Shown piece after piece: positions 54,461-61,399 of a DNA stretch of 64,000 bases. The stretch's first letter is position 1; each line of letters opens with the position of its first letter. Location of the stretch: assembly GCF_003591005.1 (NCBI RefSeq), contig NZ_QYYD01000010.1, positions 124,001 to 188,000 of the forward strand, in the 5' to 3' direction. Source of the DNA: Rhodopseudomonas palustris. Its GTDB lineage: Bacteria > Pseudomonadota > Alphaproteobacteria > Rhizobiales > Xanthobacteraceae. The notes under the pieces are model-generated. The model was not told the origin of the DNA. It saw nothing but the letters and a program-made list of their open reading frames with translations, and did not search any database. Position numbers and translations under genes: made by a program.

Positions 54461-55381
54461 CTACGCCGCCGGCACGATCCTGCGCACATCGCCGCTGTCG
54501 GTGATGAAGGCGGCGCCGGGCTTGGAGAACAGGAAACCGTTCGACTTGCGCAGCGGATAGAGCTGCTCCAGCTGGAGCGCGCCGTCGGCGGCGCTCAGCT
54601 TGCCGTCGATCACCTCGTGGAACAGCCTGGCTACCGCCACTATGTCGCATTGCTGCGGTGACAGACGTAGAGAGCGGGCGCCGGCGTCCTTCAGCTTGTC
54701 GATGTCGCCGAGCAGGCTGGCGCAGGTGTAGGACAGCGTCTGCACGCCGTTCATCGCCAGAAACGGCTCGTCGTCGAGCGTCGTCACCGCGAGGCCGTCG
54801 GGGTCCTGGTCGCAGACGAATTTGCAGTTGTCCTTGGACAGCTTGTTGAGCCTTGCGTGATAGCAGCGCGCCGAGATCGCCAGCGGCACACGGCCGAATG
54901 CGAACACCTCGAACGTCACCTCCGGCTGCGAGCGCGCGATGGCGCGGATCGCCGACAGCGGCAGCTCCGGCGGCAGGCAGATCCGCGTCGCGCCGCGTGC
55001 TGCGAAGTAACCGGCGGTCGCCTCGTTGTAGATGTTAACGAACGGGCCGATAGCATGCGGCCTGCCGCCGAGCATGCCCAGGCAGGTGAGATCGTTGACT
55101 TCCATCGGGAAGCTGTCGTCGCCCGCAAGCTCGGCCATCGCCTTGCGCTCGCGCGGCAGCGACATCAGCGTCAGCGAGCCCATCAGCACGGTCTTGCCGG
55201 CGCCGGCGAGGCGTTCGACCACCGCCGGGATATGCGGCTCCAGGAACGGCTGGCGCTTCGAGCACACCACCTCGCCGACCACCACATTGTCGACCGGCGC
55301 TTCGTCGGCGATGCGGAAGTAGAAGTCGCGCCACTCCTCGGGCTTCCAGTTATACAGCACCGGTCCGAGCGTGAGTTGCAT
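54461..55381 (-). CDS. ubiV: UbiV, oxygen-independent ubiquinone hydroxylase subunit (U32 peptidase family)
   Basis: 306-residue iron-sulfur protein that works with UbiU in O2-independent ring hydroxylation during ubiquinone synthesis. Cysteines are spaced as known for the [4Fe-4S] cluster: Cys41 in GEVVCSK, then Cys-x12-Cys-x3-Cys in ARCYHARLNKLSKDNCKFVC. Start at 55381 (MQLTLGP) is preferred to an ATG 21 bases upstream. Last of the leftward ubiT-ubiU-ubiV series. Confidence 0.9.
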   Translation of the reverse strand: MQLTLGPVLYNWKPEEWRDFYFRIADEAPVDNVVVGEVVCSKRQPFLEPHIPAVVERLAGAGKTVLMGSLTLMSLPRERKAMAELAGDDSFPMEVNDLTCLGMLGGRPHAIGPFVNIYNEATAGYFAARGATRICLPPELPLSAIRAIARSQPEVTFEVFAFGRVPLAISARCYHARLNKLSKDNCKFVCDQDPDGLAVTTLDDEPFLAMNGVQTLSYTCASLLGDIDKLKDAGARSLRLSPQQCDIVAVARLFHEVIDGKLSAADGALQLEQLYPLRKSNGFLFSKPGAAFITDSGDVRRIVPAA

Positions 55382-55453
55382 GGGGGTCGCCTCGTTGTGC
55401 ATCGGGTGGTCGATCGCCGGCGCGATGCGCGGGACGCGATCAGCGTTCGAGAA

Positions 55454-56431
55454 TCAGCGCCAGGTCTTCTTGTAAGCGCCGGTGGTGGTGGATTGGCCCT
55501 CGGTGAGGCCGCGCAGCGCGTCGACCGGCAGCGGACGGCCTTCGTCCATCGCGCCGAGGACGTCCTTGAAGGTCTTCACCACGCGCTCGATATAGGCGCG
55601 GCCGCGCTGGCGGCCCTCGATCTTCAGCGCTGCGACGCCGGCGGCGCGCAGGTCCGGCAGCATCGTGGTGGCGTCGAGCGAGGCCGGATCCTCGAACAGA
55701 TAGCCGCAGCCCTCATCGGTCTGGTAGCGGCCCTTGCACAGGGTCGGATAGGCCGCCGCCTCGCCCTTGGCGAATTTGTTGATGGTGAACTCGCCGAGCC
55801 GCGACACCAGCGCGCCCTTCTCCTCGCGATACTGGATCGCGCCGGCGGGCGAGCAGACGCCGTCCATATTGGGCGACTTGCCGGTCGCGTAGGACGACAG
55901 CGAGCAGCGGCCCTCCTCCATCACGCACAGCCCGCCGAAGATGAAGACTTCGGTCTCGCAATCCACCTCTTTGGTGATCGCCGCGATCTCCTGCACGCTG
56001 AGCACGCGCGGCAGCACCACGCGCTTGGCGTTGAAGCTGTCGATGTAGAACCTGATCGAATCGGCGTTAGCGGCGGCGGCCTGCACCGAGACGTGCAGGC
56101 GCTGCTGCGGATGATTGCGCGCGCAGTAATCCATCACGCCGACGTCGGCGAGGATCACGGCGTCGGCGCCGGCCTCGACCGCATCGTCGACCGCACGCTG
56201 CCACAGTTCGACATTGCCGGCGCGCGCGAAGGTGTTGATCGCCACCAACACGCTGACGCCGTAGCGATGCGCGTGGGCGATCGACTCGCGCATTTCCTGC
56301 CGGCTGAAATTCAGCCCCGGAAAATTTCGCGCGTTAGTTTCGTCGTTGAAGCCGCAATAGATCGCGTCGGCGCCCGCGGCAACGGCGTCGTGCAATGCGG
56401 CGGGCGTGCCGGCCGGACAGATCAATTCCAT
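55454..56431 (-). CDS. ubiU: UbiU, oxygen-independent ubiquinone hydroxylase subunit (U32 peptidase family)
   Basis: 325-residue partner of UbiV. The cluster-binding cysteines follow the family spacing: Cys-x6-Cys-x16-Cys in GGLCVMEEGRC and DGVCSP, then TLCKGR. The N-terminal MELICPAGTPAALHDAVAAGADAIYCGF is typical. It lies 72 bases before the ubiV start and 3 bases after ubiT. UbiU-UbiV add ring hydroxyls without oxygen, allowing quinone synthesis in anoxic growth. Confidence 0.92.
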   Translation of the reverse strand: MELICPAGTPAALHDAVAAGADAIYCGFNDETNARNFPGLNFSRQEMRESIAHAHRYGVSVLVAINTFARAGNVELWQRAVDDAVEAGADAVILADVGVMDYCARNHPQQRLHVSVQAAAANADSIRFYIDSFNAKRVVLPRVLSVQEIAAITKEVDCETEVFIFGGLCVMEEGRCSLSSYATGKSPNMDGVCSPAGAIQYREEKGALVSRLGEFTINKFAKGEAAAYPTLCKGRYQTDEGCGYLFEDPASLDATTMLPDLRAAGVAALKIEGRQRGRAYIERVVKTFKDVLGAMDEGRPLPVDALRGLTEGQSTTTGAYKKTWR

Positions 56432-56434
56432 GCG

Positions 56435-56980
56435 CTAACCTCCGCCGCTGGCGCCCAGCTCTTCACGATAATTCGGCTGCGCGCCGACCAGGCTGCGCAG
56501 AATCCGTTCGATCGGCGCCGCCAGCGGGCCGAACCACGCCACCGACTCTTTCAGGAAATCGACGCGGGAGTCGTCGATCGCGTTGCGCAGCGCCACCACG
56601 GCTTCCATGTCGCCATCGATTTCGATGTCGCGCGAGAAGAACAGCGCATCGCCGTCATAGGAGCCGTCGGTCATGCCGATCAGCGCCGACAGCGGGCCGG
56701 CGATCCGGGCGTCGATGTTGGGCGGCAGCGTGCGCACCACGGTGACGCGCGGATTCATCCGCCGCGGCTCGAGCACGAAGGCGAGCGGCAGATCGGTCGG
56801 CGCCAGGCCGTAGCGCTTGCCGGTGTGGGTGCCGAGGCGATCGAAGATGCGGGGATGCCGACTGCGGATCTCCCGCAGGCAAATGCCGAGCAACACCTGC
56901 AGGGGCAACAGCGGCAGAACCCGCGTTGCGAGGGCAAGCGGCGCGGGCATCCTGGAGACGGACGAACTGGATACCGACAT
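56435..56980 (-). CDS. ubiT: UbiT, SCP2-domain accessory factor of anaerobic ubiquinone synthesis
   Basis: 181-residue protein with an SCP2 lipid-binding domain (FVLEPRRMNPRVTVV, RIAGPLSALIGMTDGSYDGDALFFSRDIEIDGDM). UbiT is required with UbiU and UbiV for ubiquinone made without oxygen and probably carries quinone intermediates. First of the leftward three genes; AAGG lies before its ATG and a FixK-type box 51 bases upstream. Confidence 0.88.
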   Translation of the reverse strand: MSVSSSSVSRMPAPLALATRVLPLLPLQVLLGICLREIRSRHPRIFDRLGTHTGKRYGLAPTDLPLAFVLEPRRMNPRVTVVRTLPPNIDARIAGPLSALIGMTDGSYDGDALFFSRDIEIDGDMEAVVALRNAIDDSRVDFLKESVAWFGPLAAPIERILRSLVGAQPNYREELGASGGG

Positions 56981-57030: not shown

Positions 57031-57044
57031 TTGCGCCTGATCAA
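57031..57044. promoter_or_regulatory. Consensus FixK/FNR-type box between ubiT and ubiD
   Basis: TTGCGCCTGATCAA fits the Bradyrhizobium-type FixK consensus TTG(A/C)GC-N2-GATCAA exactly. It lies 51 bases from the ubiT start and 52 bases from the ubiD start, so it could act on either or both. This links the quinone cluster to oxygen limitation. Confidence 0.8.
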
Positions 57045-57095: not shown

Positions 57096-58634
57096 ATGCT
57101 CAGCCGCGTCAAACCGCCTTTTCCGGACCTCCGCGCTTTCACCGCCTATCTGGAATCCCGCGGGCAGTTGCACCGGATCCACAAGCCGGTGTCGGTGGTC
57201 CACGACCTCACCGAAATTCATCGCCGCGTGCTGCACGCCGGCGGGCCGGCGCTGCTGATCGAACATCCGGTCAAGGCCGACGGCACGCCGTCGGCGATGC
57301 CGATGCTGGTCAATCTGTTCGGCACCGTCGAGCGGGTCGCGTGGGGGCTCGGCATCTTGCCGGAGAATCTGTCGCGGCTCGGCGAGGCGCTCGCCGAAAT
57401 GCGCGAACCGGCGCCGCCGCAGAGTCTGACCGATGCGCTGAGCAAACTGCCGATGGCGCGCGCGGCGCTCGCGATGCGGCCCAAGACCGCGAAGTCCGCA
57501 CCCGTGCAAGACGTGGTGCTGACCGGCGACGCGATCGATCTCGGGCGGCTGCCGGTGCAGATCCCATGGCCGGGCGAGCCGGCGCCGCTGATCACCTGGG
57601 GGCTGGTGTTCACCAAGCCGGCGCCGGGGGTGCACGGCACCGACAATGTCGGCGTCTACCGGATGCAGGTGCTGGGCAAGGATCGCCTAATCATGCGCTG
57701 GCTGGCGCATCGCGGCGGCGCTAAGCATCATCATCAATGGAAGACCGAGGGCCGCGAGATGCCGGTGGCGATCGTGATCGGCGCCGATCCGTCGATGATC
57801 CTGTCCGCGGTGCTGCCGCTGCCGGAGACGGTGTCGGAGATCAAGTTCGCCGGCCTCTTGAGCGGCGAGCGGCCGAGCCTGACGTCGTGCGTGTCGATCC
57901 CGCTGAGCGTGCCGGCCGATGCGGAGATCGTGCTGGAAGGTTATGTGTCGCCGGCCGAGACCGCGCCGGAAGGGCCGTATGGCGATCACACCGGCTACTA
58001 CAATGCGGTCGAGGAATTCCCGGTGATGCGGATCACCGCGATCACCATGCGGCGCAATCCGATCTATCTGTCGACCTACACCGGCCGCCCGCCGGACGAG
58101 CCGTCGCGGCTGGGCGAAGCGTTCAACGACGTATTCCTGCCGGTGGCGCGGCGGCAATTTCCGGAAATCGTCGATCTGTGGCTGCCGCCGGAGGCCTGCT
58201 CCTACCGGATCGCGGTGGCGTCGATCAGGAAGCGCTATCCAGGCCAGGCGCGGCGGCTGATGATGGGGCTATGGTCGATGCTGCCGCAGTTCAGCTACAC
58301 CAAACTACTCATCATCGTCGACGACGACGTCGACGTCCGCGACTGGGCCGACGTGATGTGGGCGGTGTCGACTCGCAGCGATACCTCGCGCGACATGGTG
58401 TCGATCAGCGACACCCCGATCGATTATCTCGACTTCGCCTCTCCGAAATCCGGCCTCGGCGGCAAATTGGGGATCGACGCCACCAACAAGATCGGCACCG
58501 AGACCGAGCGCGAGTGGGGCAAGGTGCTTGAAATGGACAAGGACGTGATCGCGCGGGTCGACGCGATGTGGACCAGCCTCGGGCTGAGCCCGGCGCCGAC
58601 ACCTGGCGCGGCGCCGCGCCGGCTGCTGCGATGA
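57096..58634 (+). CDS. ubiD: UbiD-family prFMN decarboxylase
   Basis: 512-residue decarboxylase using prenylated FMN. Conserved signatures are PEGPYGDHTGYYN (with the catalytic Glu), LPETVSEIKFAGLLSGER and the metal/prFMN segment around DNVGVYRMQVL. The preceding frame is open for long, but ATG at 57096 has GGAG at correct spacing and fits the family start. Paired with UbiX through a 4-base overlap, and divergent from ubiT-ubiU-ubiV, it most likely decarboxylates 4-hydroxy-3-polyprenylbenzoate; an aromatic acid decarboxylase role is possible. Confidence 0.88.
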   Translation: MLSRVKPPFPDLRAFTAYLESRGQLHRIHKPVSVVHDLTEIHRRVLHAGGPALLIEHPVKADGTPSAMPMLVNLFGTVERVAWGLGILPENLSRLGEALAEMREPAPPQSLTDALSKLPMARAALAMRPKTAKSAPVQDVVLTGDAIDLGRLPVQIPWPGEPAPLITWGLVFTKPAPGVHGTDNVGVYRMQVLGKDRLIMRWLAHRGGAKHHHQWKTEGREMPVAIVIGADPSMILSAVLPLPETVSEIKFAGLLSGERPSLTSCVSIPLSVPADAEIVLEGYVSPAETAPEGPYGDHTGYYNAVEEFPVMRITAITMRRNPIYLSTYTGRPPDEPSRLGEAFNDVFLPVARRQFPEIVDLWLPPEACSYRIAVASIRKRYPGQARRLMMGLWSMLPQFSYTKLLIIVDDDVDVRDWADVMWAVSTRSDTSRDMVSISDTPIDYLDFASPKSGLGGKLGIDATNKIGTETEREWGKVLEMDKDVIARVDAMWTSLGLSPAPTPGAAPRRLLR

Positions 58635-59227
58635 GCGCGCCGCGCCGCATCATCGTCGGCATCAGCGGCGCGTCAGGTGCCGCGGTCGGCCTGCGAATCG
58701 TCGAACTGCTCGCGACCACCGACTGCGAGATCCACCTCGTGGTGTCGTCGGCGGCGGAGCGCACCATCGCCTATGAGGTCGGGCCGAAGGCGCTCGAGCA
58801 CACCATCGAGATCGTCGATCGCCATCACGAGATCAATGACGTCGGCGCCAGCATCGCCTCGGGCTCGTTCCGCACCGCCGGCATGATCGTGGCGCCGTGT
58901 TCGATCCGCACCCTGTCGGCGATCGCCACCGGCAATCTCGACAATCTCTTGGTCCGCGCCGCCGATGTACAACTCAAGGAGCGACGACGGCTGGTGCTGA
59001 TGCTCCGCGAGACGCCGCTGCATTTGGGCCATATCCGCAGCATGGCGCAGGTTACCGAGATCGGCGGCATCGTCGCCCCGATCTCACCGGCGTTCTATCA
59101 GCGGCCGCGTTCGATCACCGAGATGATCGACCACCTCGCGCTGCGCGCCATCGGCCTGCTCGGCCTCGACGACCTCGACCTCGCCGCCCCGGAATGGTCG
59201 GACGATACGCCGCCGACGTGTCCGTAG
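58631..59227 (+). CDS. ubiX: UbiX-family flavin prenyltransferase
   Basis: 198-residue flavoprotein that prenylates FMN to make the UbiD cofactor. GISGASGAAVG at the start, SGSFRTAGMIVAPCSIRTLSAIA and the C-terminal MLRETPLHLGHIRSM are typical. Start overlaps the ubiD stop (ATGA). Together they give the complete decarboxylation step. Confidence 0.92.
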   Translation: MSAPRRIIVGISGASGAAVGLRIVELLATTDCEIHLVVSSAAERTIAYEVGPKALEHTIEIVDRHHEINDVGASIASGSFRTAGMIVAPCSIRTLSAIATGNLDNLLVRAADVQLKERRRLVLMLRETPLHLGHIRSMAQVTEIGGIVAPISPAFYQRPRSITEMIDHLALRAIGLLGLDDLDLAAPEWSDDTPPTCP

Positions 59228-59269
59228 GGCTGAGTATCTGCGCTGTCATGGTCGGGTACGGAACCTCCC

Positions 59270-59348
59270 CGTCATTGCGAGGAGCGGAGCGACGAAGCAA
59301 TCCAGCGCCGTGCACCGGGCTGGATTGCTTCGCTTCGCTCGCAATGAC
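59270..59348. repeat. Palindromic intergenic repeat, family A (copy 4)
   Basis: Arms CGTCATTGCGAGG and CTCGCAATGAC with inner GAAGCAATCCAG and CTGGATTGCTTC, in the 260-base gap between ubiX and the small-protein genes. Confidence 0.9.
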
Positions 59349-59405
59349 AGTGGAGAGGCTGTTGTCGAAAGCGATAGTCTCACGCGTCGCCGGACGCCGC
59401 CCAAT

Positions 59406-59442
59406 AAAAAGCCGGCACCCACCCGATCAGGTGGATGCCGGC
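59406..59442 (-). terminator. Intrinsic terminator for the small membrane protein operon
   Basis: On the minus strand, GCCGGCATCCACC pairs with GGTGGGTGCCGGC-type sequence (59411-59442) around a short loop and is followed by five T (59410-59406). It lies 45 bases downstream of the stop of the 63-residue membrane protein. Confidence 0.8.
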
Positions 59443-59486
59443 AGATCTTGAGCGGAGCAGATCGAGCAGCAGCCGGACGCGCTGCC

Positions 59487-59678
59487 TCAGCGCGCATGGC
59501 CCGCGAGATGGTCGTGCGGGCGCCAGTCTTCGGCGGCGTCGTCCCAATAGTGCGCTTCGTCGAAGCGCTTCCAGCGCGCGGTCTCGGACACCATTTCGCG
59601 TCCGCCATAGACCAGCGCAACGAGGCCGATCAGGCCGACCAGCACGTAGATCGCAGCGATCAATACAACAATGGTCAA
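59487..59678 (-). CDS. Small single-span membrane protein
   Basis: About 63 residues: a TTG start at 59678 is supported by GAGGA 8 bases upstream; a longer frame from a GTG at 59714 lacks a ribosome site. One long hydrophobic segment (IVVLIAAIYVLVGLIGLVALVYG) is followed by an acidic and aromatic cytoplasmic tail rich in Trp, His and Asp (RFDEAHYWDDAAEDWRPHDH). No family recognised. Second gene of a pair downstream of a FixK-type box and ended by a terminator. Confidence 0.6.
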   Translation of the reverse strand: MTIVVLIAAIYVLVGLIGLVALVYGGREMVSETARWKRFDEAHYWDDAAEDWRPHDHLAGHAR

Positions 59679-59751
59679 GGCTTCATCCTCACTGTGGTGG
59701 TTGATCGAATGCACCCGTTGGAGCGCGGCGGGTGCGCCGCGTTGTGCGAGA

Positions 59752-59949
59752 TCAGGAGTTCGCCCAGGCGAACCAGCCGGACCTGGACGACTGCACCGGA
59801 GCAGTCACAATCACGGGCTCCGGATGCCGCACCTGCGCGCGCCGGAATACTCTCTGCCGGATGTCGTCGAGAACCAGATACGCGATCAGGGCGGCTGGAA
59901 CCGCACAGGCCAGGAACAACACAAGTGAACCAAGCGAAGCTAAATACAC
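59752..59949 (-). CDS. Small single-span membrane protein
   Basis: About 65 residues from a GTG at 59949, which has AGGAG 6 bases upstream. One hydrophobic segment (YLASLGSLVLFLACAVPAALIAYLVL) then a basic stretch DDIRQRVFRRAQVRH and a Ser/Pro tail. No family recognised. It is 57 bases downstream of a consensus FixK-type box and shares direction with the second small gene 73 bases on. Small membrane subunits of terminal oxidases look like this, but no oxidase gene is in the window. Confidence 0.6.
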   Translation of the reverse strand: MYLASLGSLVLFLACAVPAALIAYLVLDDIRQRVFRRAQVRHPEPVIVTAPVQSSRSGWFAWANS

Positions 59950-60005
59950 GCCAATCTCCTGCTGTTGTTGAGCCGGAAAACTAGACGCGAGTACCGCCGG
60001 CTGCA

Positions 60006-60019
60006 TTGCGCCGGATCAA
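60006..60019. promoter_or_regulatory. Consensus FixK/FNR-type box upstream of small membrane proteins
   Basis: TTGCGCCGGATCAA is an exact match to TTGCGC-N2-GATCAA. A -10-like TCTAGT lies about 30 bases downstream on the minus strand (59985-59980), a spacing suitable for class II activation of the small protein gene starting at 59949. Confidence 0.78.
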
Positions 60020-60373
60020 TTCCAAACCGGCATACTAGCCGGTTCCGCATCATTAGTCTTGTGTAGTTATCTGATCGTTAAACAATTTCCGCGGGCGGCG
60101 CGGCCGCTTAGCCGCCCTTCAACAAGTCGTGAAAGTGAACCGGAGCGCTAACATACGCCAACCCAGCGCGCTCCTTAGGGCTGACCGCAAAATCGAGGTC
60201 GAGTTCACACCACCCTCTAGTTTGGGCGCCTCCGTCTCCACGCGTCATGCCCGGCCTTGTGCCGGGCATCCACGCCTTGCTGACGGTGACGCCGAAAAGG
60301 CGTGGATGGTCGGGACAAGCCCGGCCATGACGGAGTGTGTTAGCAAATCAAGTGAGATTTCTGGTCAGGCTCG
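60020..60373. other. Intergenic region upstream of the small proteins
   Basis: About 350 bases with a family B repeat (60243-60332). Outside that repeat nothing was recognised apart from a short GC-rich inverted stretch near 60100-60118. No coding frame is convincing. Confidence 0.5.
60243..60332. repeat. Palindromic intergenic repeat, family B (copy 5)
   Basis: Outer arms CGTCATGCCCGGCC and CCCGGCCATGACG, inner CATCCACGCCT and AGGCGTGGATG, in the reverse order to copies 1, 2 and 4, so it is inserted in the other orientation. Confidence 0.9.
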
Positions 60374-61399
60374 TCACACCGGCTTCAGTCGATAGTGACT
60401 GACGCCCCATTCGTCGCCGTCGGCATAGCCGAACAGTCCCGAGGTCGCGAGGAAGAACCAGCGCCAGCGCCGCATCCACAGAGCGGTGTCGTCGCCATAG
60501 ACCGGGCGCAGGATCGACTCGATCTCGGTCTCGTGCTTGTCAAAATTCGCCAGCCAGTCTTCGGCAGTTCGCTGATAGTGCCGGCCGCTCCAGCGCCATT
60601 GCTCGTCGATGCGGAAAACATCGGCGTATTGCCGGATCAGCTTGTGGCTCGGCATCACGCCGCCGGTGAAGAAATGCTGCGCGATCCAATCGTCGCGGTC
60701 GGCGCGATCGAACAGATAGGCGCCGCTGCGGTGCGTGAAGATGTGGATGAAGAGCGATCCGCCCGGAGCGAGCCAGCCACGGATGCGGCCGAGCAGCGCG
60801 CGCCAGTTCATCATGTGCTCGAACATCTCGACCGAAACCACGCGGTCGAATTTTTCGCCCGGATCGAACGCGTTCATGTCACACGTCACGACGCGCAGGT
60901 TCAGCAGCCCGCGCGCCGCGGCTTCGCTCTCGATGTAGAGCCGCTGCGACGCCGAGTTCGACACCGCGACGATGCGCGAGTTCGGCAGATGCCGCGCCAT
61001 CGCCAGCGACAGTGAGCCCCAGCCGCAGCCGAGTTCGAGGATCGAGTGGCCGTCGCGCAGATCGGCGTGTTCCATGGTGATGCGCAGCGCTTCGTCTTCG
61101 GCCTGCGCCAGCCTGGTGTCGGCCTCGCGATAGAAGCAGGACGAATACTTGCGGTTCGGCCCCAGCACCTTGCCGAAGAACGCGGCCGGCACTTCGTAGT
61201 GCTGGGCGTTCGCCTCGTCGGTGTGTTCGGCGACCGCGCGCGACGCCATCTCGCGGGCGAAGGCGGCGTCGGCGGCCTCGTTGCCGTGGGCCAGCTTCGC
61301 GGCGGTGCGGGCGCACAGCCGGTTGATGCCGGCGCGGATCACCGCGTCCGGCAGTGCTACGCGCTCGGCGACGCCGATGATCGAAGATACAAAGCTCAT
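60374..61399 (-). CDS. Cyclopropane-fatty-acyl-phospholipid synthase family methyltransferase
   Basis: 341-residue SAM-dependent enzyme. QHYEVPAAFFGKVLGPNRKYSSCFY is the typical entry, ELGCGWGSLSLAMA binds SAM, and VEMFEHMMNW and a C-terminal FRIDEQWRWSGRHYQRTAEDW follow. Such enzymes add a methylene to unsaturated lipids or methylate other lipid acceptors. The DUF1295 gene precedes it by 8 bases in the same direction, a common pairing. Confidence 0.85.
   Translation of the reverse strand: MSFVSSIIGVAERVALPDAVIRAGINRLCARTAAKLAHGNEAADAAFAREMASRAVAEHTDEANAQHYEVPAAFFGKVLGPNRKYSSCFYREADTRLAQAEDEALRITMEHADLRDGHSILELGCGWGSLSLAMARHLPNSRIVAVSNSASQRLYIESEAAARGLLNLRVVTCDMNAFDPGEKFDRVVSVEMFEHMMNWRALLGRIRGWLAPGGSLFIHIFTHRSGAYLFDRADRDDWIAQHFFTGGVMPSHKLIRQYADVFRIDEQWRWSGRHYQRTAEDWLANFDKHETEIESILRPVYGDDTALWMRRWRWFFLATSGLFGYADGDEWGVSHYRLKPV

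Follow-up and report, generated by a model that had tools for sequence, protein, structure and literature searches.

A conserved pair of small, predicted single-span membrane proteins behind a FixK/FNR-type box in Rhodopseudomonas palustris, with a tail motif that recurs in a second genus

Two adjacent small genes, A and B, in a 64,000-nucleotide stretch of the Rhodopseudomonas palustris contig NZ_QYYD01000010.1 (hereafter the window, meaning the whole stretch analysed) are best explained, with a probability of about 0.42, as accessory proteins of the low-oxygen membrane, each with a single span, whose joint expression FixK/FNR would activate and in which the cytoplasmic tail of B would recruit a partner. 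The genes and the elements around them are as follows.

54461 to 56980, minus strand: ubiT-ubiU-ubiV, neighbouring genes of O2-independent ubiquinone synthesis
57031 to 57044, read on the minus strand: a second box of the same variant, TTGATCAGGCGCAA, midway between the divergent ubiT and ubiD
57096 to 59227, plus strand: ubiD-ubiX, neighbouring genes
59411 to 59442, minus strand: intrinsic terminator-like hairpin of 14 pairs (10 G-C), followed by TTTTT
59487 to 59678, minus strand: gene B, 63 aa, TTG start, predicted span at about residues 2-24, conserved tail WKRFDEAHYWDDAAEDWRPH
59679 to 59751, minus strand: A-B spacer, with a G+C-rich hairpin and an overlapping helix GCACCCG/CGGGTGC, the two helices being mutually exclusive
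59752 to 59949, minus strand: gene A, 65 aa, GTG start, one predicted span at about residues 6-27, tail ending in GWFAWANS
59978 to 59983, minus strand: -10-like TAGTTT, read by eye, 23-28 nt downstream of the box at a class II-like distance
60006 to 60019, minus strand: FixK/FNR-type box TTGATCCGGCGCAA, that is TTGATC-CG-GCGCAA, conserved in the carriers of the pair
60062 to 60081, minus strand: upstream element TTAACGATCAGATAACTACA, of the form TTAA-N7-NTAACTA, starting 62 nt upstream of the box

Read 5' to 3' on the minus strand, the box is followed by gene A, a 73-nt spacer, gene B and the terminator-like hairpin, and an SD-like sequence precedes both the GTG start of A and the TTG start of B. 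The two open reading frames, their non-ATG starts and their ribosome sites had been described in an earlier note on this DNA, and all are present in the sequence. The starts are conserved in all 16 genomes that carry the pair (GTG 16/16, TTG 16/16); a longer ATG frame of A, which starts at 60006, overlaps the box. One membrane span in each protein, also proposed earlier, is predicted by hydropathy: A and B each contain a single strongly hydrophobic stretch near the N terminus, with no charged residues before it and peak 19-residue Kyte-Doolittle means of 2.70 for A and 3.03 for B. AlphaFold2 predicted a helix at residues 2-41 for A (pLDDT 72), and at residues 2-42 and then 47-52 for B (pLDDT 78); as models of single helices these would fit the anatomy, and they are uninformative on A-B contact or on a partner.

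We searched 150 related genomes at E <= 0.01, of which 16 matched A and 17 matched B. The pair, with the same order, box and start codons, was found in 16 of the 150, namely 14 of 16 members of the window's own genus and two genomes of another genus (g6). Across this and wider searches, a match of B in G104 (E 0.0086, inside a 645-aa frame), weak matches in G293 and G683, and a second weak match of A in G020 (E 0.0015) were set aside as chance. Over all pairs of the 16 carriers, the ratio of summed pN to summed pS was 0.32 for A (first 37 codons) and 0.24 for B (first 57 codons). A scan of named genomes with the alignment of B returned nine loci, all from Rhodopseudomonas, while a class-wide draw of 385 genomes yielded two matches, the window's own genome and a weak one in a 790-aa frame, and a plasmid search with A and B gave no match. 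That A and B are real, conserved genes is well supported by these sequence comparisons. The opposite reading, that the frames are not genes, might be suggested by their shortness and non-ATG starts, but is hardly credible, being contradicted by the low pN/pS and by the conservation of starts, SD, order and promoter in 16 genomes.

Within B, the tail is conserved most strongly. A family-wide profile search placed B in 47 of 391 genomes, namely the 16 carriers, the weakly matching G293 and 30 genomes of 7-9 Mb from a genus (g25) that appears to be Bradyrhizobium-like. The motif W-K-x-F-D-[DE]-x-H-x-W-D-x-x-A-[ED]-[DE]-W-x-P was present in 14 of the 14 g25 loci read, out of the 30 matched, in proteins of 67-86 aa that retain little else of B. 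Ten tail residues (W36, K37, F39, D40, H43, W45, D46, A49, W52 and P54) are invariant in all 11 aligned proteins, five of them of the Rhodopseudomonas type and six from g25. The g25 matches had E values from 3e-9 to 1e-4 over about 20-50 residues, and the similarity to B could be convergence. Peak 19-residue hydropathy in the 14 g25 proteins was 0.56-1.54, versus 3.03 for B; they appear to lack a strong span and may still associate weakly with the membrane. The aromatic and acidic tail that the earlier note had pointed out in the second protein is thus not confined to B, small proteins of Bradyrhizobium-like genomes having it too.

In six g25 loci that were read, the tail gene stands alone; two of these six, L083 and L087, share some neighbours, and the others differ. 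Relatives of A were sought in the 30 g25 genomes together with G010 and G014, where 24 of the 32 gave a match at E <= 1, the best being 0.006 with an internal stop, a level that we regard as background. In 14 of 14 g25 loci (L069-L082), a TGTGA-N6-TCACA-like site matching 8-10 of 10 bases ends 59-63 nt before the ATG. One of these sites scored 10, eleven scored 9 and two scored 8; among 2800 mononucleotide-shuffled upstream regions, a score of 8 was seen in 109, 9 in 7 and 10 in none. The tail module is thus found in two genera and in each follows a Crp/Fnr-like site; the distance from site to start is similar, but the sites differ in sequence, TGTGA-N6-TCACA in g25 versus TTGA-N6-GCAA before A-B. 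The g25 proteins share the tail motif with B, and differ from it in being encoded by a single gene with no convincing A, in lacking a strong span and in their length. Conservation in B peaks in the tail, which also turns up where a strong span is missing, so that the tail is probably what binds. Tentatively, and at less than even odds, the tail may be a previously undescribed docking module under Crp/Fnr control in both genera, which in Rhodopseudomonas would be fused to a span and paired with A as an accessory component of the low-oxygen, phototrophic membrane.

The box upstream of A ends 54-60 nt before its GTG. TTGATCC-N2-CGCAA and the broader variant TTGA-N6-GCAA were found in 16 of 16 carriers, and TTGATC-N2-GCGCAA in 13 of 16. 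When the promoters of the 16 genomes were aligned, with gapped columns counted as not invariant, 12 of the 14 box columns were invariant, compared with 1 of 44 in the stretch immediately before the box, 10 of 56 between the box and the GTG and 2 of 87 further upstream. Across the genome, the variant TTGATC-N2-GCGCAA (TTGATCNNGCGCAA) has eight sites versus none for the reversed control. Taken by itself, the window gives weak evidence for the box: four sites at <=2 mismatches versus 1.2 expected, a number reached in 6 of 100 shuffles; a looser pattern, in which the spacing was wrong, gave two sites versus 4.4 expected. The box claimed earlier as an exact TTGCGC-N2-GATCAA is present and conserved, but it is a variant of the consensus and not a full palindrome, its halves being TTGATC and GCGCAA. 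As for the class II distance claimed for it, a -10-like hexamer about 22-29 nt after the box gives a class II-like geometry by eye in the carriers, where weaker forms such as TACCTT or TATTTT, also read by eye, lie near the same place; a sigma-70 scan of 59200-60400 in which both hexamers were required returned no promoter.

Published FixK/FNR-type motifs are TTGA-N6-TCAA (PMC3050613) and TTGANCNNGATCAANG (PMC4999443). A sequence of the same pattern as our box, TTGCGcaggATCAA, lies under an FnrL ChIP-chip peak at hemN in Rhodobacter sphaeroides, with a low motif score of 262 versus the cut-off of 1613.5 in that paper's own genome search; the same work reports FnrL peaks at bchE, ubiD and hemN, describes the DNA targets of FixK and FNR as very similar, and gives FNR, FixK and DNR members for R. 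palustris TIE-1 (PMC2908626). The A-B operon was unrecognisable in Table 1 of PMC3050613, whose locus tags could not be matched to A-B. The candidate activator is FixK or FNR/AadR, two regulators that are indistinguishable from the site. With the FixK/FNR (AadR) regulon of Rhodopseudomonas and other Alphaproteobacteria, A-B shares the box type, conserved in 16/16 carriers at a spacing that by eye would be class II-like, and a box variant that also stands near BchE-type, bfr and ubi genes, and it differs in the second half-site, GCGCAA versus GATCAA.

Four of the eight genomic sites of the variant are tied to recognisable genes, namely A-B, the gap between ubiT and ubiD, a BchE-type gene and bacterioferritin, and the other four, judged from their open reading frames and one Pfam scan, were tied to no recognised low-oxygen gene. 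All 13 loci read have the box between ubiT and ubiD, and three of them come from genomes that lack A-B. Another site precedes a short gene and then the BchE-type gene (NCBIfam TIGR02026, 459 bits versus a cut-off of 481, the frame being cut by the locus end), and one lies near bfr. Because the variant accompanies ubi, BchE-type and bfr genes, and because of the FnrL peaks, the setting is that of an oxygen-controlled Crp/Fnr activator, a low-oxygen setting that conservation supports well, and to judge from the promoter A-B would be made at low oxygen. In locus L107 (1501-1823), the variant precedes a 79-aa open reading frame (MDKIDFMNGQ...) with no Pfam match.

Searches of Pfam, NCBIfam and PHROGs returned no convincing match for A or B (best E 0.019). 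The anti-sigma factor CnrY for A and DUF4235 for 4 of 12 A relatives (neither better than E 0.019), and B12D (E 0.035, also the best Pfam match for B itself) and AmcA (0.033) for relatives of B, were below the cut-off and were put down to chance. Cytochrome oxidase small-subunit profiles (FixQ/CcoQ, CydX) did not match either protein, a PDB sequence search up to E 10 returned one match, a PAS protein at E 0.84 that we judged to be chance, and neither protein matched a chain of the RC-LH1 and LH2 structures, though structures of both complexes from R. palustris have been published. The earlier view that the two proteins have no recognised function is thus in agreement with our searches, which link them to no oxidase-subunit family and no PDB chain. 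A literature search by title or start of abstract found nothing on an A-B operon, which does not prove absence. We would place A and B among the small accessory membrane proteins. CydX and FixQ/CcoQ are single-span proteins of low-oxygen membranes, and A and B resemble them in having one predicted span, but have no Pfam or NCBIfam match and no oxidase encoded alongside in the loci read. Protein-W (PufW, RPA4402), a 10.5-kDa protein of the R. palustris RC-LH1 complex, was likewise a small membrane protein of the same genus that was uncharacterised when identified; it has three membrane helices, versus one predicted span each and no PDB match for A and B (PMC7806223). LH2 gamma (RPA1495) of R. 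palustris was unrecognised until cryo-EM and contains six approximate EYKGHSGHPLIKQEG repeats in the membrane plane (PMC9618040), repeats of a kind that A and B do not have.

Reaction-centre (Photo_RC) genes are present in all 16 A-B carriers versus 40 of the 150 genomes overall (Fisher p 5e-11, uncorrected for kinship), and the box variant is shared with the BchE-type gene. Together with the precedent of protein-W and LH2 gamma as late-identified subunits in R. palustris (PMC7806223, PMC9618040), this argues for A and B as structural subunits or assembly factors specific to the photosynthetic apparatus (RC-LH1, LH2 or quinone traffic). The link with phototrophy is, however, confounded by descent, the carriers forming one lineage; 24 of the 40 reaction-centre genomes, G010 and G014 among them, are without the pair, no PDB chain matches, and the tail module also occurs in g25 genomes, so that we consider a photosynthetic role unlikely. 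G010 and G014 are the two members of the window's genus without A or B, and since they have reaction-centre genes and ubiTUV-DX, the pair is dispensable. A different role, in which A and B would be small regulators tuning a transporter or a respiratory enzyme rather than recruiting a soluble partner, in the manner of CydX and KdpF, is suggested by their size, single span and condition-specific promoter. We hold it to be unlikely: A and B match no such family, and since the tail is strongly conserved and reappears where no strong span is present, the working part of B would be the tail, not the span.

The neighbourhood brings in a further reading, in which A and B would serve as membrane anchors for the O2-independent ubiquinone pathway (UbiT/U/V, UbiD/X) and a soluble Ubi enzyme would bind to the tail of B. 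All 10 carrier places read (the window and L036-L044) have one gene order: a gene that we take from its sequence appearance to be TolQ/MotA-like, DUF1295, a CFA-synthase-like methyltransferase, A, B, ubiX-ubiD and ubiT-ubiU-ubiV, UbiV not being seen in L041, which ends there. This constancy, the presence of the variant box in the ubiT-ubiD gap and the listing of the ubiD locus as an FnrL ChIP-chip target in R. sphaeroides (PMC2908626) favour the reading, but in the loci read A-B forms a unit of its own that is convergent with ubiX, and in G010, G014 and G060 ubiXD-TUV is retained while A-B and, over the 19-19.5 kb read, the CFA/DUF1295 side are missing. In g25, 56 of 265 genomes matched UbiU at E <= 1e-30, and of the 30 tail carriers 9 are among those 56, 4 were printed without UbiU and 17 are not among the 56, which gives a Fisher p of 0.23 if all 30 lie within the 265. 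A link of the tail with UbiU is accordingly unsupported. Because ubi genes occur without A-B and the tail occurs mostly without UbiU, a dedicated role of A-B in ubiquinone synthesis is unlikely on this sequence evidence; the pathway would not be a required partner of the tail, and anchoring of Ubi enzymes strikes us as distinctly improbable. A link with the neighbouring DUF1295 gene was rejected, as this gene is found in 54 of the 150 genomes at E <= 1e-20, including G010 and G014, where it lies elsewhere.

For the preferred reading, an accessory pair whose B tail recruits a partner, we infer the following course of low-oxygen expression, topology, A-B contact and docking. A Crp/Fnr-family activator (FixK or AadR) would bind 60006-60019 and start class II transcription, which a second protein at the upstream element would probably modulate. 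By the positive-inside rule, both A and B would be inserted with the C terminus facing the cytoplasm and only a very short N-terminal stretch outside, and their spans would presumably be packed against one another or against a larger membrane complex. The cytoplasmic tail of B, WKRFDDxHYWDxxAEDWRPH, would then dock a partner protein at the membrane. Since g25 has this peptide with neither A nor a strong span, the partner is to be expected among the proteins common to both genera. R. palustris is a model for photosynthesis in which two light-harvesting subunits were first seen as unexplained density in structures, and the A-B operon, of a conserved low-oxygen type, is a concrete target whose promoter can be tested and whose ten invariant tail residues can be mutated. 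Should the tail prove to be a docking module, it would open the way to a small-protein family in Bradyrhizobium-like bacteria as well.

Further elements flank the box and the two genes. In the upstream element, 11 of the first 18 columns are invariant in the 16 genomes, versus 1 of 44 in the stretch to the box, from which it is separated by 62-64 nt in 15 of 16 genomes and by 53 nt in one; the copy in G064 has TTTA for TTAA. Searched as TTAACGATCAACTAACTACA, the element is single-copy in the genome at <=3 mismatches. We take it to resemble a CtrA site (TTAA-N7-TTAA), and do not assign it to CtrA. An upstream TCAC-N6-GTGA repeat picked up by regular expression was rejected, the hits being mostly unrelated sites. 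Between 60243 and 60332, a long imperfect inverted repeat with 36-nt arms lies between the CFA-like gene and the A-B promoter.

In the spacer between A and B, the competing GCACCC/GGGTGC complement was found in 13 of 16 genomes, as aligned without G008, G020 and G064, whose spacers differ. Covariation was confined to one pair of the first hairpin that changed on both sides, a result reached by 344 of 500 shuffles and exceeded by a slid control, and none was seen in the second helix; control of B by alternative spacer folds is only an idea, covariation favouring neither helix over controls. The intrinsic terminator that had been described downstream of B is present in the window, but a stem of at least 6 pairs was found in only 7 of 16 carriers, versus 51 of 1600 shuffled sequences. 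In 7 of the 10 carrier places (L036-L038 and L041-L044), B and ubiX are separated by a cassette whose three genes look from their sequences like an XRE-type gene, a membrane protein gene and a lipoprotein gene. It was not found in the window, G020 or G064, and in the window its place (59228-59486) holds a palindromic repeat at 59293-59332 instead.
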